From Halorhabdus utahensis DSM 12940 (GTDB taxonomy: Archaea; Halobacteriota; Halobacteria; Halobacteriales; Haloarculaceae), in assembly GCF_000023945.1 (NCBI RefSeq), contig NC_013158.1, forward strand, positions 1,736,001 to 1,800,000: DNA of 64,000 bases. Reading direction: 5' to 3'. The notes beneath the pieces are model-generated. The model was given only the letters and a program-made list of their open reading frames with translations. It searched no databases and was not told the origin of the DNA. Below are positions 37,982 through 42,489 of this stretch, piece by piece (position 1 is the first letter of the stretch; every line of letters starts with the position of its first letter). Both the position numbers and the translations under genes were made by a program.

Positions 37982-39337
37982 TTATCGGTCGCCGGCACCC
38001 AGCGCACTCTCGCCGACCGGGTCCTGCCCTTCGATCAGTTCTTGGCCGTCGAGATACGGGCGGAGTGCTTCCGGCACCGTCACCGTCCCGTCGTCGTTCT
38101 GATAGTACTCCAAGATCGCCACGAGCACCCGCGGGAGTGCGACTCCAGAGGCGTTGAGCGTGTGGAGGTACTCGGCGGATTCGTGGCGCTCAGGCCGATA
38201 TCGAATGCCGGCCCGTCGTGCCTGGAAGTCCTCGAAATTGGAGGCTGAGGAGACTTCGAGCCACCGACCGCCTTCAGTCGGTCCCTCCTCCATGTCGTCG
38301 CCCGGTGCCCAGACCTCGACGTCGTAGGTCTTCGCCGAGGCGAAGGTCAGATCGCCGGTACACAACTCCAGGATCCGGTAGGGTAACTCCAGCCGGCGGA
38401 GTACTTCCTCGGCCTCGTCCAGCAGTCCCTCGAGGCGCTCGTCGCTCTCTTCCGGCTCGACGAAGTTGACGAGTTCGACCTTGTTGAACTGGTGGACGCG
38501 GACGATCCCTCGGGTCTCGGTGCCGTGCTCGCCGGCCTCCTGGCGGAAGTTGGGCGTGTAGGCCTGGTGTTTCAGCGGGAGGTCGTCGTCGAGCAGGATT
38601 TCGTCGCGGTACATGTTCGTCACCGGGACCTCCGCCGTCGGGCACAGCCAGAGGTCCTCCTCTTCGAGCTTGTAGGCATCGTCGGCGAACTTGGGGAGTT
38701 GCCCCGTCCCGGTCATCGACTCACTGGAGACCGGGATCGGCGGGAACACCTCTTCGTAGCCCTGCTCGCGGTGGATGTCCCGCATGAACTGGATGAGCGC
38801 GTGTTCGAGGCGTGCGGCGTCGCCCTTTAGGAAGTAGAAGCCGCCGCCCGAGACTTTCGCGCCGCGTTCGAAGTCCAGGATGTCGAGTTCCTCGCCGAGA
38901 TCGTAGTGGGGCGTGACGTCCTCGGGCAGGTCCCGCAGATCCTCGAACCCCCACCGTCGCGTTTCCACGTTGTCGCTTTCGTCCTCGCCCTCGGGAACGC
39001 CCTCCTGGGGGATATTGGGAATCTCCAGCAGCCGCTCTTCTAACTCCCTCTCGAGTTCGTCGGCGCGTTCCTCGACCTCCTGGAGCTCGTCTTTGAGTTC
39101 CTGAGAGCGTTCGATGGCTTCCTGGGCGGCTTCCTCGTCACCTTCCTGCTTGAGCTCGCCGATCTTCGAGGAGACCTCGTTGCGGTCGTGTCGCAGGTCG
39201 TCGCCGCGGGCTTTCAGCTCGCGCCACTCCTCGTCGATCTCCAGGATCGCGTCGAGATCGACATCGTCGACGCCGCGAGCGGCGAGGGTCTCTCGAACCT
39301 CCCCGGGGTGCTCGCGGACGTACTGGCGTGATAACAT
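37982..39337 (-). CDS. serS: Seryl-tRNA synthetase
   Basis: 451 residues from ATG 39337; an upstream frame to 39364 would add nine residues before the conserved MLSRQYVREH. A long antiparallel coiled coil fills residues 25-105 (RDDLRHDRNEVSSKIGELKQ and following), the arm that holds the serine tRNA. The class II core has motif 2 FRQEAGEHGTETRGIVRVHQ and motif 3 ending in GVALPRVLVAILEYYQ. It is the common, not the methanogen-type, enzyme. An unusual conserved 46-bp element sits 87 bp upstream (39425-39470). The tRNA-Ser(GGA) gene lies 10.6 kb away. Confidence 0.95.
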   Translation of the reverse strand: MLSRQYVREHPGEVRETLAARGVDDVDLDAILEIDEEWRELKARGDDLRHDRNEVSSKIGELKQEGDEEAAQEAIERSQELKDELQEVEERADELERELEERLLEIPNIPQEGVPEGEDESDNVETRRWGFEDLRDLPEDVTPHYDLGEELDILDFERGAKVSGGGFYFLKGDAARLEHALIQFMRDIHREQGYEEVFPPIPVSSESMTGTGQLPKFADDAYKLEEEDLWLCPTAEVPVTNMYRDEILLDDDLPLKHQAYTPNFRQEAGEHGTETRGIVRVHQFNKVELVNFVEPEESDERLEGLLDEAEEVLRRLELPYRILELCTGDLTFASAKTYDVEVWAPGDDMEEGPTEGGRWLEVSSASNFEDFQARRAGIRYRPERHESAEYLHTLNASGVALPRVLVAILEYYQNDDGTVTVPEALRPYLDGQELIEGQDPVGESALGAGDR

Positions 39338-39424
39338 GGACGCCCTTTCTCGGTGGCGTCTCAAAACCGTATCGCTCTGGCCGGCTGCCGGCGACAGCGG
39401 TCGCTCGACGATCGGTACCCCGGA

Positions 39425-39470
39425 GAAACTCCGTCTATATCTTTACCTTGTAACCAGAGGTACTTAAAGC
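39425..39470 (-). promoter_or_regulatory. Repeated 46-bp promoter/leader element, copy upstream of serS
   Basis: Read on the minus strand it begins with GCTTTAAGT, then CCTCTGGTTACAAGGT, then AAGATATAGACGG, and ends GTTTC. It matches the element at 41611-41656 at 42 of 46 positions. The four differences are one C/G at position 1 and three A/G changes. TTTAAG looks like a TATA box, so the conserved sequence would run through the transcription start. 87 bp separate it from the serS start. Confidence 0.65.
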
Positions 39471-39504
39471 GCGATCCGTGGCCGAGCAGTGGGATACTCT
39501 CCGA

Positions 39505-40110
39505 TCAGTCGTACTTCGGCTCGCGTCGCTCGGCCCGTTCCAGTGCTGTCTCGACGATCTCCCGAACGTCACCGTGGAAGGCGCCGCCGTGGCCGCTGTA
39601 CATGTGTTCGACAGTCTCGGGCATCCGATCGAGGATGTCGCGGATCGACTCGATGAGGCGCTCGCGCGATTGGCCGGGATTGTCGGTCCGGCCGAAACTC
39701 CCGCCCTCGAAGGCCCCGTCGTCGTGAACTACGGTATCACCGGAGAAGAGCGTGGTCTCGCTCACCAGCGAGACGTGGTCGTCGGCGTGGCCCGGCGTGT
39801 AGACGACCTCGAAAGTTTCGTCGCCCATTTGGATCGTGTCGCCGTCGTCGAGTCCGTTCGTCCGCCGGGGGTGATCGGCGTTGGCGTACAGCTCGGCGTC
39901 GAAGGCGTCGAGGACCGCATCGAGTTGCGCGACGTGGTCGCCGTGCTGGTGGGTCAGGACGACGCTGTCCAGTTCGTCGGTATACTCCCGGATCACGTCG
40001 ACGACGCCGTCCATCGCGCCGGCGTCGACGAGCGTCGGTCGGTCGCCGGTCGCGAGATAGACGTTCGCGGTGAACGTCTCCGCGTCGGCAGTTACGTTGT
40101 GAACGTCCAT
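39505..40110 (-). CDS. Metallo-beta-lactamase-fold hydrolase (glyoxalase II-like)
   Basis: 201 residues. VVLTHQHGDHVAQLD contains the HxHxDH zinc motif, YTPGHADDHVSL the next histidine, LFSGDTVV the bridging aspartate and MYSGHGG the last histidine. The length is that of a minimal single-domain hydrolase. Thioesters such as S-lactoylglutathione analogues are the usual substrates of close relatives, but haloarchaea use other thiols, so the substrate is open. It lies between serS and DUF5786 and has its own promoter region to the right. No signal peptide is present. Confidence 0.85.
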   Translation of the reverse strand: MDVHNVTADAETFTANVYLATGDRPTLVDAGAMDGVVDVIREYTDELDSVVLTHQHGDHVAQLDAVLDAFDAELYANADHPRRTNGLDDGDTIQMGDETFEVVYTPGHADDHVSLVSETTLFSGDTVVHDDGAFEGGSFGRTDNPGQSRERLIESIRDILDRMPETVEHMYSGHGGAFHGDVREIVETALERAERREPKYD

Positions 40111-40208
40111 GGTCGAAGATAGGGTCCAGCAACGGGTTGAGTCTGGCGGTAATCGTGCCAGCGCATAGCGTGTGATTTTTCACCACGAATGGCATAGGTT
40201 TACATGGC

Positions 40209-40388
40209 ATGGGGTTCGGGAGCTACGACGAAACTGAACAGGAGAATCAGGACCTGGACGCGGATTTTGATGATGATGACGGGGTCAACGCTGCGGAAAA
40301 CACACACGACGGTGATCTTGAGTTCGAGTTCACCGCCTCGAACGACGAACTGATCGACCAGTTATCGGATATCAAGGAAAACACGTAA
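40209..40388 (+). CDS. DUF5786 small acidic protein
   Basis: 59 residues from ATG 40209. The opening MGFGSYDETEQENQ is diagnostic of DUF5786, a haloarchaeal family with an acidic middle and a C-terminal helix (FEFTASNDELIDQLSDIKE). GATTTTTC at about 40174-40181 is a TATA-like box at the leaderless distance. Its stop is one base before the GTG start of the DUF99 gene, so the two form an operon. It is below usual gene-length limits but the family match is strong. The function is unknown. Confidence 0.85.
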   Translation: MGFGSYDETEQENQDLDADFDDDDGVNAAENTHDGDLEFEFTASNDELIDQLSDIKENT

Positions 40389-40389
40389 C

Positions 40390-40947
40390 GTGAAATCGGG
40401 GGTTCGCGCGCTTGGCATTGCCGAATCGTTCACCGGCGATTCGAGTACGCTTGCCGGCGCAGTTGTCCGCGCCAGTCGCGTCACCGACGGCTTCGTCTTC
40501 GGCTCCTGCACCGTTGGCGGAAGCGATGCGACCGACGCCATTGCCCAGATGGTCCACCGCCTTGACCGCGCGGACGTTCGCTACCTGCTGGTCGCCGGGA
40601 TCGCTCCGGCGTGGTTCAACGTGGTCGACCTGCACCGTCTCCACGAGGAGACCGGACTGCCGGTGCTCTCGGTCACTTTCGAGGACAGCGAGGGCCTGGA
40701 ACCGGCGCTCCGTGAGGAGTTTTCCGGCGAAGCGCTCGCCTGGCGGCTCGATACGTACCGCGCCCAACCGGAACGCGAGCGTGTCTCGATGAACGATGAA
40801 ACGGTTTTCGTCCGGAGTGTGGGCTGTGACTCGCCGGCCGGCGAGATCGTCCGGGCGTTCACCCCGGAAGGCGGGCGACCCGAACCGGTGCGGGTTGCGC
40901 GGCTGGCCGCCCGCGCGGCCGATCGGTCGTTCGGCCCCGACGAGTGA
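40390..40947 (+). CDS. DUF99 (endonuclease V-like fold) protein
   Basis: 185 residues from GTG 40390, one base after the DUF5786 stop. GVRALGIAESFTGDSSTLAG and VRYLLVAGIAPAWFNVVDL match the DUF99 archaeal family, whose structure is related to endonuclease V. The aspartates and glutamate of an EndoV site are not clearly conserved, so DNA or RNA cleavage is not established. The C-terminal RVARLAARAADRSFGP is a basic helix. A DNA repair gene follows after 60 bp, which fits a nucleic-acid role without proving it. Confidence 0.8.
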   Translation: MKSGVRALGIAESFTGDSSTLAGAVVRASRVTDGFVFGSCTVGGSDATDAIAQMVHRLDRADVRYLLVAGIAPAWFNVVDLHRLHEETGLPVLSVTFEDSEGLEPALREEFSGEALAWRLDTYRAQPERERVSMNDETVFVRSVGCDSPAGEIVRAFTPEGGRPEPVRVARLAARAADRSFGPDE

Positions 40948-41007
40948 TAGCACGCCTCCCAGACTGCGATAGCGACGTTTTTGCCGGCCCGGCTCGCAGG
41001 CCCGGGC

Positions 41008-41592
41008 ATGGAACACATGGACGGCCTCTCGGTCGAGGGCTGCGAGCAGTGTGGCGACCTCGTGGCCTCCCGGTCGCGGATCGTCGACGGCGTGGGACCC
41101 GCGGATGCGGAACTCCTCTTTGTCGGTGAGGCTCCCGGCGAACGCGAGGACGAACAGGGCGAACCGTTCGTTGGCCGTAGTGGAACGGTTCTCGATGACG
41201 CGTTGCGGGACGCCGGGCTCTCACGAGCGGACGTCCGGATCACCAACTGTGTCCGGTGTCGCCCGCCCGAGAACCGCGACCCGACGAGCGACGAGCGTTC
41301 GAACTGTCGCCCGTACCTCGACCGGGAGATCGACCAGGTCGACCCAACGGTGATCGTCACCCTCGGAAAGGTACCGGGTGAGCATCTTCTGGGCAGGGAC
41401 CTGGCAGTCACCAGCGAGGCGGGCTCGATCGAGGACGTCGATATCGAGGGGACCACCCGCCGTGTATTGATCTGTGTCCACCCCGCCGCGACGCTGTACG
41501 ATCGCAGCCAGCGCGAGACCTTCGAACGGACGATCCAGCAGGCGGCCGACCTGGCGGGTGACGGCGGCCAGGTCGAACTCGGTGACTTCTGA
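41008..41592 (+). CDS. Family 4-like uracil-DNA glycosylase with iron-sulfur cluster
   Basis: 194 residues from ATG 41008, with a TATA-like GACGTTTTTG about 28-35 bp upstream. FVGEAPGERED is the GEAPG-x-x-E-D motif 1 of family 4, and ICVHPAATLYD replaces the HPS/HPAA motif 2. Cysteines in CEQC (12 and 15), CRPP (84) and SNC (100) fit the four ligands of a 4Fe-4S cluster. The enzyme removes uracil from DNA, important in archaea where the polymerase stalls at uracil. An upstream start at 40981 is possible but adds no conserved residues. Confidence 0.9.
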   Translation: MEHMDGLSVEGCEQCGDLVASRSRIVDGVGPADAELLFVGEAPGEREDEQGEPFVGRSGTVLDDALRDAGLSRADVRITNCVRCRPPENRDPTSDERSNCRPYLDREIDQVDPTVIVTLGKVPGEHLLGRDLAVTSEAGSIEDVDIEGTTRRVLICVHPAATLYDRSQRETFERTIQQAADLAGDGGQVELGDF

Positions 41593-41610
41593 CCGGTGAG
41601 TACCCGCGAT

Positions 41611-41656
41611 CCTTTAAGTGCCTCTGGTTACAAGGTGAAGATATAGACGGGGTTTC
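41611..41656 (+). promoter_or_regulatory. Repeated 46-bp promoter/leader element, copy upstream of the RNA polymerase epsilon gene
   Basis: The element begins CCTTTAAGT, has CCTCTGGTTACAAGGT at its core, then GAAGATATAGACGG, and ends GTTTC. It equals the serS copy at 42 of 46 bases and has the same orientation relative to the downstream gene, 80 bp before ATG 41737. TTTAAG is a TATA-like box; the conserved part continues about 35 bp past it. It starts 18 bp after the uracil-DNA glycosylase stop. Confidence 0.65.
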
Positions 41657-41736
41657 TTGAAGGATTTTCGGCGTTCCAGCCACCGGTTCGTTCGGACCCG
41701 CTGGATTCAACTGTCCGTAGCGTCGAGGTACGCATC

Positions 41737-42489
41737 ATGCCGACACCGGGCGACGTGGGTACCGAACTGGAACCGGCCGAGCGCGAGCGCCGCGAGTGGC
41801 GTCGGGACCGGGCGATTTCGACGAAACCCGGCGACGGGACACTCACCCGTGCCGAGGCCAAGCGCGACGCGACGGTCAGACAGTTCGACATCGTCTCGCC
41901 GAGCGCGACGACGATCGGCCGCCCCGACTCACCCGATGGTGATCTCAGCGACCGCATACGGCGGCTTCACGACGAGCAACATCCCGCCATGACCGGCCAC
42001 GCCGAGCGGATGCATCGTCTGGACAAGGCCCGCATCACCCACGCGCTGTGCAGCGAACTGGATCTGACGCCCTGGGAACGGGACCGTGCGCTGGGGGTCC
42101 TGACCGAGATCGACCTGACGGCGTTCGGGAGCCAGCGGGCGATCCCGAAGGTCGCCCTCGTCGTCATCCAGCATGTCGTCGACAGCGAGCGCCGCCGGCA
42201 ACTCGGGCTGCACGACAGCGACCGGATCGCCGAGCTGGACCCTGACGAGATGGCGTCACTGTATGACCGTTTCGAGTCACTGACCGACGACGACCGGTAT
42301 CGCGCCCTGCTGGCTGCCAACGGTCTCGATCAGACCAGCGTCAATCGACTCGATCGCGTCCTGCGCGACCAACTCGACGAACAGGAGCTGCACGGCGCAG
42401 TCTACGGGCGGGTCCCCCACCGCGACCCCCACTTGCCCCGCGCGGCCAATCGGGAGGCGGATCCGCCCGCGCCCGAACGGGACGACTGA
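41737..42489 (+). CDS. Probable DNA-directed RNA polymerase subunit epsilon
   Basis: 250 residues, very polar. The central domain (about residues 70-150) has LDKARITHALCSELDLTPWE and ALGVLTEIDLTAFGSQRAIP, which I recognise from memory as the haloarchaeal RNA polymerase epsilon protein, a subunit described only in halophiles. Residues 1-60 are charged and disordered, the end is proline-rich. No enzymatic motifs exist. Its exact role in transcription is unknown. Sharing a 46-bp upstream element with serS fits a core information-processing gene. The alternative is an uncharacterised conserved haloarchaeal protein. Confidence 0.6.
   Translation: MPTPGDVGTELEPAERERREWRRDRAISTKPGDGTLTRAEAKRDATVRQFDIVSPSATTIGRPDSPDGDLSDRIRRLHDEQHPAMTGHAERMHRLDKARITHALCSELDLTPWERDRALGVLTEIDLTAFGSQRAIPKVALVVIQHVVDSERRRQLGLHDSDRIAELDPDEMASLYDRFESLTDDDRYRALLAANGLDQTSVNRLDRVLRDQLDEQELHGAVYGRVPHRDPHLPRAANREADPPAPERDD

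Follow-up and report, generated by a model that had tools for sequence, protein, structure and literature searches.

The class I intergenic repeats of halovirus HF2 are extended promoters of 58 bp in which conserved blocks flank a CTTTAAGT TATA box; a conserved block also contains the transcription start, at a distance of 26 nt from the box (PMC8707807). They are the nearest described counterpart of the repeat analyzed here, which likewise looks like an extended promoter present in several copies, includes a CTTTAAGT box, lies between genes and recurs in one genome. The HF2 repeats differ in having another core sequence and in needing no other viral genes to be active in Haloferax volcanii. 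The alpha, beta and gamma motifs of HF2 are not shared, and by eye only the TTTAAGT box is common to the element and IR4. Haloarchaeal promoters in general place the TATA box ~26 nt upstream of the transcription start (PMC6523106; PMC8707807) and have a CGAAA-like BRE consensus just upstream of it (PMC4983044).

The second reference point is the epsilon subunit of RNA polymerase. It was reported in 1983; according to a later account, it associates physically with the Halobacterium polymerase, and with it the enzyme is efficient on native DNA templates (PMC8305020 citing Madon and Zillig 1983). The same account names the Halobacterium protein as OE_1279R rpoeps (PMC8305020 citing Leffers 1989, Madon and Zillig 1983) and describes the role of epsilon as enigmatic (PMC8305020). 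Epsilon is described as a polymerase component and not as a promoter-specific factor. Bacterial alternative sigma factors are auxiliary polymerase factors with their own promoter class and autoregulation. The likeness of epsilon to them proposed below would be one of role; the machinery is unrelated and the comparison is an analogy only. Among the papers listed by the literature searches, with subscription papers largely outside their scope, we found no archaeal description of the element or of its core strings, and no cognate DNA site described for epsilon.

Two copies of an extended promoter-type element

The window, a 64,000-nucleotide stretch of the Halorhabdus utahensis DSM 12940 genome, contains one copy of the element upstream of serS and one upstream of a gene for an RNA polymerase subunit epsilon homolog. 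The features of the two loci are as follows.

37982..39337, minus strand: serS, serine--tRNA ligase (TIGR00414, E 2.3e-147)
39425..39470, minus strand: element copy upstream of serS (conserved extent ~39422-39478)
39462..39468, minus strand: TTTAAGT TATA-like box of the serS copy (alignment; spacing confirmed without the box in the query)
39445..39459, minus strand: core YTCTGGTTACAAGGT of the serS copy (core search and alignment)
39431..39442, minus strand: initiator-like block AGATATAGACGG of the serS copy (start predicted near 39442; putative leader of ~105 nt)
41611..41656, plus strand: element copy upstream of the epsilon gene (conserved extent ~41603-41659)
41613..41619, plus strand: TTTAAGT TATA-like box of the epsilon copy (alignment)
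41622..41636, plus strand: core YTCTGGTTACAAGGT of the epsilon copy (core search and alignment)
41639..41650, plus strand: initiator-like block AGATATAGACGG of the epsilon copy (start predicted near 41639; putative leader of ~98 nt)
41737..42489, plus strand: RNA polymerase subunit epsilon homolog, 250 aa (homology; predicted cyclin-like core at ~85-220)

An earlier note on this DNA had claimed a 46-bp repeat shared by the two upstream regions. The repeat is real: the copies at 39425-39470 (-) and 41611-41656 (+) are identical at 42/46 bases, and identity drops sharply at both edges. The distances given in that note were borne out, with 87 bp to the serS ATG at 39337 (-) and 80 bp to the ATG of the second gene at 41737 (+), as were the orientation of both copies toward the gene starts and the conservation that extends well past the TATA box. 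The second-best match of the plus-strand copy within the window was 24/46. For 200 random 46-mers used as a control, the best match averaged 27.9/46 and never exceeded 39/46. The window has two exact matches to the 16-bp core, and shuffled sequences gave 0.2 matches with 3 mismatches tolerated. Chance is no serious explanation for the repeat. The whole 3.12-Mb genome contains one additional copy, at C1:1575133-1575170 (-), for a total of 3. This third copy is flanked by a CNNM-type gene and the 3' end of comB (gene names assigned by eye from translations), which leaves it with no protein gene on its own strand immediately downstream. Genomes G004 and G006 have a copy in the same setting.

Alignment of 295 copies defined an extended promoter-type element of ~56 bp. 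Counted from the first T of TTTAAGT, conservation spans about -10 to +46, and the blocks are ordered as the TTTAAGT TATA-like box, the fixed core YTCTSGTNACAAGGT and the initiator-like block AGMTAYGAMGGG, which falls at the expected start site. The TTTAAG box and core that had been noticed in both window copies were confirmed by alignment and by their fixed spacing. A possible TATA-box artefact was controlled for by searching 31 genomes with the core and tail only, the box being left out of the query; TTTA was found at the fixed spacing in 75/78 copies of the fetched loci. Given the ~26-nt distance between the haloarchaeal TATA box and the start site, the expected start is the conserved AG at 41639 (+) and 39442 (-). 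Transcription from this AG block would produce leaders of ~98 and ~105 nt, respectively. Positions -6 to -1 before the TATA box are pyrimidine-rich, with A at ≤0.13, and a CGAAA-like BRE is absent from this part of the alignment. The core contains a partial dyad, CTSGTNACAAG. A palindromic dimer site was considered and rejected because the dyad is broken in many copies with no compensation.

The epsilon identity of the second gene, put forward in the earlier note, is supported by homologs that NCBI annotates as DNA-directed RNA polymerase subunit epsilon. These align at 61-63% identity with E values down to 7e-84 (tblastn), and this annotated name is what links the window gene to OE_1279R rpoeps. 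The open reading frame belongs to no Pfam or NCBIfam family and has no TFIIB match in Pfam, and comparison by sequence with solved structures or Pfam gave no convincing homology.

Conservation and placement of the element

The element is located before both serS and the epsilon gene in 7/7 sampled members of the genus. In the alignment of upstream regions from the genus, conservation climbs at the element and falls after it, and the flanks diverge. Some genus members have tandem pairs of elements 110-121 bp apart, and the stretch between the tandem copies is not conserved within the genus. The epsilon leader has a second block, TGGATTCAACTGTCCGTAGCG at 41702..41722 (+), which is kept in 7/7 genus members and is separate from the promoter element. 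At serS, a further block (GATACGGTTTTGAGACGCCACC...) at 39337-39390 (-) is conserved in 5/7 aligned genomes and is possibly a basal promoter of its own; in G001 and G005 a second element copy occupies the aligned stretch.

Placement was determined for 185 non-redundant element clusters in the fetched loci, with gene starts taken from a simple codon-score predictor. No cluster lies inside a predicted gene (0/185). The next gene is on the same strand in 136/185 clusters (127 within 350 bp), 38 clusters face a convergent gene end and 11 are at locus edges; the 38 convergent cases indicate that some copies do not stand before any gene. The genes downstream are epsilon (59), an RlaP-type nucleotidyltransferase beside epsilon (39), serS (7), GNAT (7), prs (3) and UbiA/menA-like genes (3), with others that include hisG, a cold-shock protein and TrkA. 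The serS partner is restricted to this genus, and the near-constant partner is the epsilon gene. The earlier suggestion of a growth-linked site for the translation apparatus is unsupported by this distribution, as serS is a partner in this genus only and the other targets are unrelated. The search of the genome and related haloarchaea proposed in the same note upheld the idea of a shared regulatory element.

Tandem copies have a fairly regular spacing with a median of 134 bp and often precede the epsilon gene. For most of the epsilon genes examined, an element lies upstream or faces the 3' end, and a few, at loci L165 and L175, have no nearby element at the thresholds used. Elements also face the 3' side of the epsilon gene in several genomes (L146, L160-L164, L168 and L173), as if driving antisense transcripts. 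In G088, a convergent 420-bp ORF, about the size of an IS200 transposase, ends ~100 bp away from three elements (L220-L222).

Coupling of the element to epsilon

A set of 391 Halobacteriales genomes was scanned for the element at ≤2 mismatches and for the epsilon protein at E ≤1e-30. The element was found in 149/391 genomes, with essentially no matches to the reversed pattern, and the protein in 186/391. Epsilon is carried by 149/149 genomes with the element, and the element is present in 0/205 epsilon-free genomes. Fisher's test on this strict table gave p = 5e-73, a value to be read with the relatedness of the sampled genomes in mind, and the within-group contrasts therefore weigh more. A looser pattern detected the element in 36/37 of the remaining epsilon genomes compared to 0/37 epsilon-free controls, and the sole miss (G218) has an epsilon homolog that is just 40% identical. 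Copies per genome are few, with 3 in the Halorhabdus utahensis genome and ~13 at most in the strict scan of the 391 genomes.

The contrast holds within narrow groups. The two epsilon-bearing genomes of genus g34, G068 and G088, contain 7 and 11 elements, which are distributed over several contigs besides the one with the epsilon gene, whereas the four members without epsilon (G047, G060, G075 and G081) have zero elements at ≤1 mismatch. Genus g55 exhibits the same contrast, with elements where there is epsilon and none where there is not. In family f4, a single genome (G240) is the only one sampled with the element and the only one listed with epsilon. Copies far from the epsilon gene vanish too, which means that the coupling is more than a lost gene taking its own promoter with it. 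The coupling of the element to epsilon is near-perfect. In viral sequences, the element had one chance-like match in an AT-rich contig and weak, unrelated matches in phages, and no epsilon homologs were detected in the phage collection or the viral contigs.

A candidate promoter class for epsilon

The AlphaFold model of epsilon has a confident helical core at residues ~85-220 and low-confidence ends, with a moderate mean pLDDT of 73. Foldseek with the whole model found no significant match. On realignment of structures, the highest ranks went to cyclins and to the cyclin repeats of TFIIB and Brf2. The best of these was a yeast TFIIB cyclin repeat, which superimposed on the predicted model with Z 12.1 and 2.3 A over 96 residues, bearing in mind that helical folds can score high by chance. 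Comparison with haloarchaeal TFBs gave an hhalign probability of 0.1 with thin alignments; homology to TFB is unsupported by these sequence profiles, and the resemblance of the predicted epsilon model to TFIIB is one of fold only. The epsilon core is predicted to adopt a TFIIB-like cyclin fold. The parallel with archaeal TFB and eukaryotic TFIIB, which work with BRE and TATA, is a predicted cyclin fold coupled with a promoter that has a TATA-like box and a start expected ~26 nt on. Epsilon differs from these factors in that it has one predicted cyclin repeat, and its element has a pyrimidine-rich stretch in the place of the BRE. A second cyclin repeat and a zinc ribbon at the N-terminus were looked for and not found: the model has a single confident helical domain at ~85-220, and the family alignment has one conserved cysteine.

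We propose, with a probability of about 0.6, that the element marks a promoter class read by epsilon, autoregulated through the copy before the epsilon gene, to which serS was added in Halorhabdus. The element would be an extended archaeal promoter consisting of a TATA-like box, a fixed core and the initiator or first transcribed bases, and its use would depend on the epsilon protein encoded behind one of its copies. Epsilon would join the initiation complex, where it would touch the DNA between the TATA box and the start site or aid opening, and would thereby select the promoter class. Its own gene and a small, lineage-variable set of others would be under its control, and in Halorhabdus this set would include serS. 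The proposal draws on the anatomy, conservation, tandem arrays and position of the element, its coupling to epsilon and the predicted fold. The efficient transcription of native DNA by epsilon-containing polymerase, as summarized in PMC8305020, fits a subunit that recognises or opens the element. Judging from these sequence patterns, epsilon probably binds the element, and the effect may be activation rather than repression. More tentatively, we advance the broader idea that epsilon acts as a TFIIB-like factor that selects promoters by their sequence, comparable to an alternative sigma, with its own extended promoter class, an autoregulated and sometimes plasmid-borne gene, and targets rewired by lineage. 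A DNA element present essentially only alongside epsilon is a concrete target for testing the enigmatic role of the subunit. If this is confirmed, archaea would possess, in addition to their TBP/TFB repertoire, an auxiliary factor of the polymerase that serves a promoter class of its own.

Co-occurrence alone is compatible with another factor that was gained and lost together with epsilon. A different regulator, either a TFB paralog or an ordinary repressor located between the TATA box and the start, could bind the element and have epsilon merely as its main target. The core is placed where a repressor could sit and has partial dyad symmetry, and haloarchaea have many TFBs (17-20 TFIIB-domain matches per genome). 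We consider this unlikely, as the lack of compensation for broken dyads speaks against it, and the loss of epsilon-distant elements along with epsilon within one genus requires the factor to have had an identical history of gain and loss.

Improbable is a scheme in which the element drives small or antisense RNAs, the tandems ~134 bp apart being small RNA genes and the placement at epsilon and serS only one use. The third genome copy, the 38/185 clusters that face a convergent gene end and the fairly regular tandem spacing would suit such RNAs, but the next gene is on the same strand in 136/185 clusters, the sequence between tandems is unconserved in the genus and searches for an RNA family or fold came back negative. 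The earlier note had also suggested a conserved transcribed leader; on this reading, it would control translation of epsilon and serS. The predicted leaders do begin inside the element, and leaders are unusual in a setting where 72% of Haloferax volcanii mRNAs are leaderless (PMC4983044). The suggestion is nevertheless unsupported and the explanation very improbable: the TATA box is at fixed spacing, most of the conservation is upstream of the start expected from haloarchaeal spacing, and the leader-folding check was negative. The consensus RNA fold energy was 0 with no dyad covariation (60 of 429 copies aligned), and Rfam gave no match over the element and only a sub-threshold Burkholderia sRNA match inside an MBL-fold gene. 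Hardly credible is the reading of the element as a dispersed repeat, or the remains of a mobile element, that regulates nothing. Several tens of bases are repeated per genome, there are tandems, and some copies are near the 420-bp ORF in G088; however, copies are few per genome, their orientation before epsilon is fixed and they are held in place across the genus while the flanks diverge. The insertion-like dispersal that the earlier note had set against its own interpretation was not what we found, with 3 copies in the genome and 0/185 clusters inside genes.

The epsilon gene itself is found in several settings. Plasmid-borne epsilon genes with an element occur in Halorussus halophilus and Halococcus dombrowskii, and the plasmid epsilon gene of Halocatena salina has no element at the threshold used. 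The chromosomal epsilon homolog of Halobacterium hubeiense (G113, assigned to this species by its identity with plasmid pSTJ003) has three elements upstream. A distant epsilon paralog (31% identity) on pSTJ003 of Halobacterium hubeiense (L177) is near a TATA-box-binding-protein gene and also has an element upstream. Five genomes of genus g25 in family f5 (G084, G092, G099, G111 and G121) have two to four epsilon matches each.
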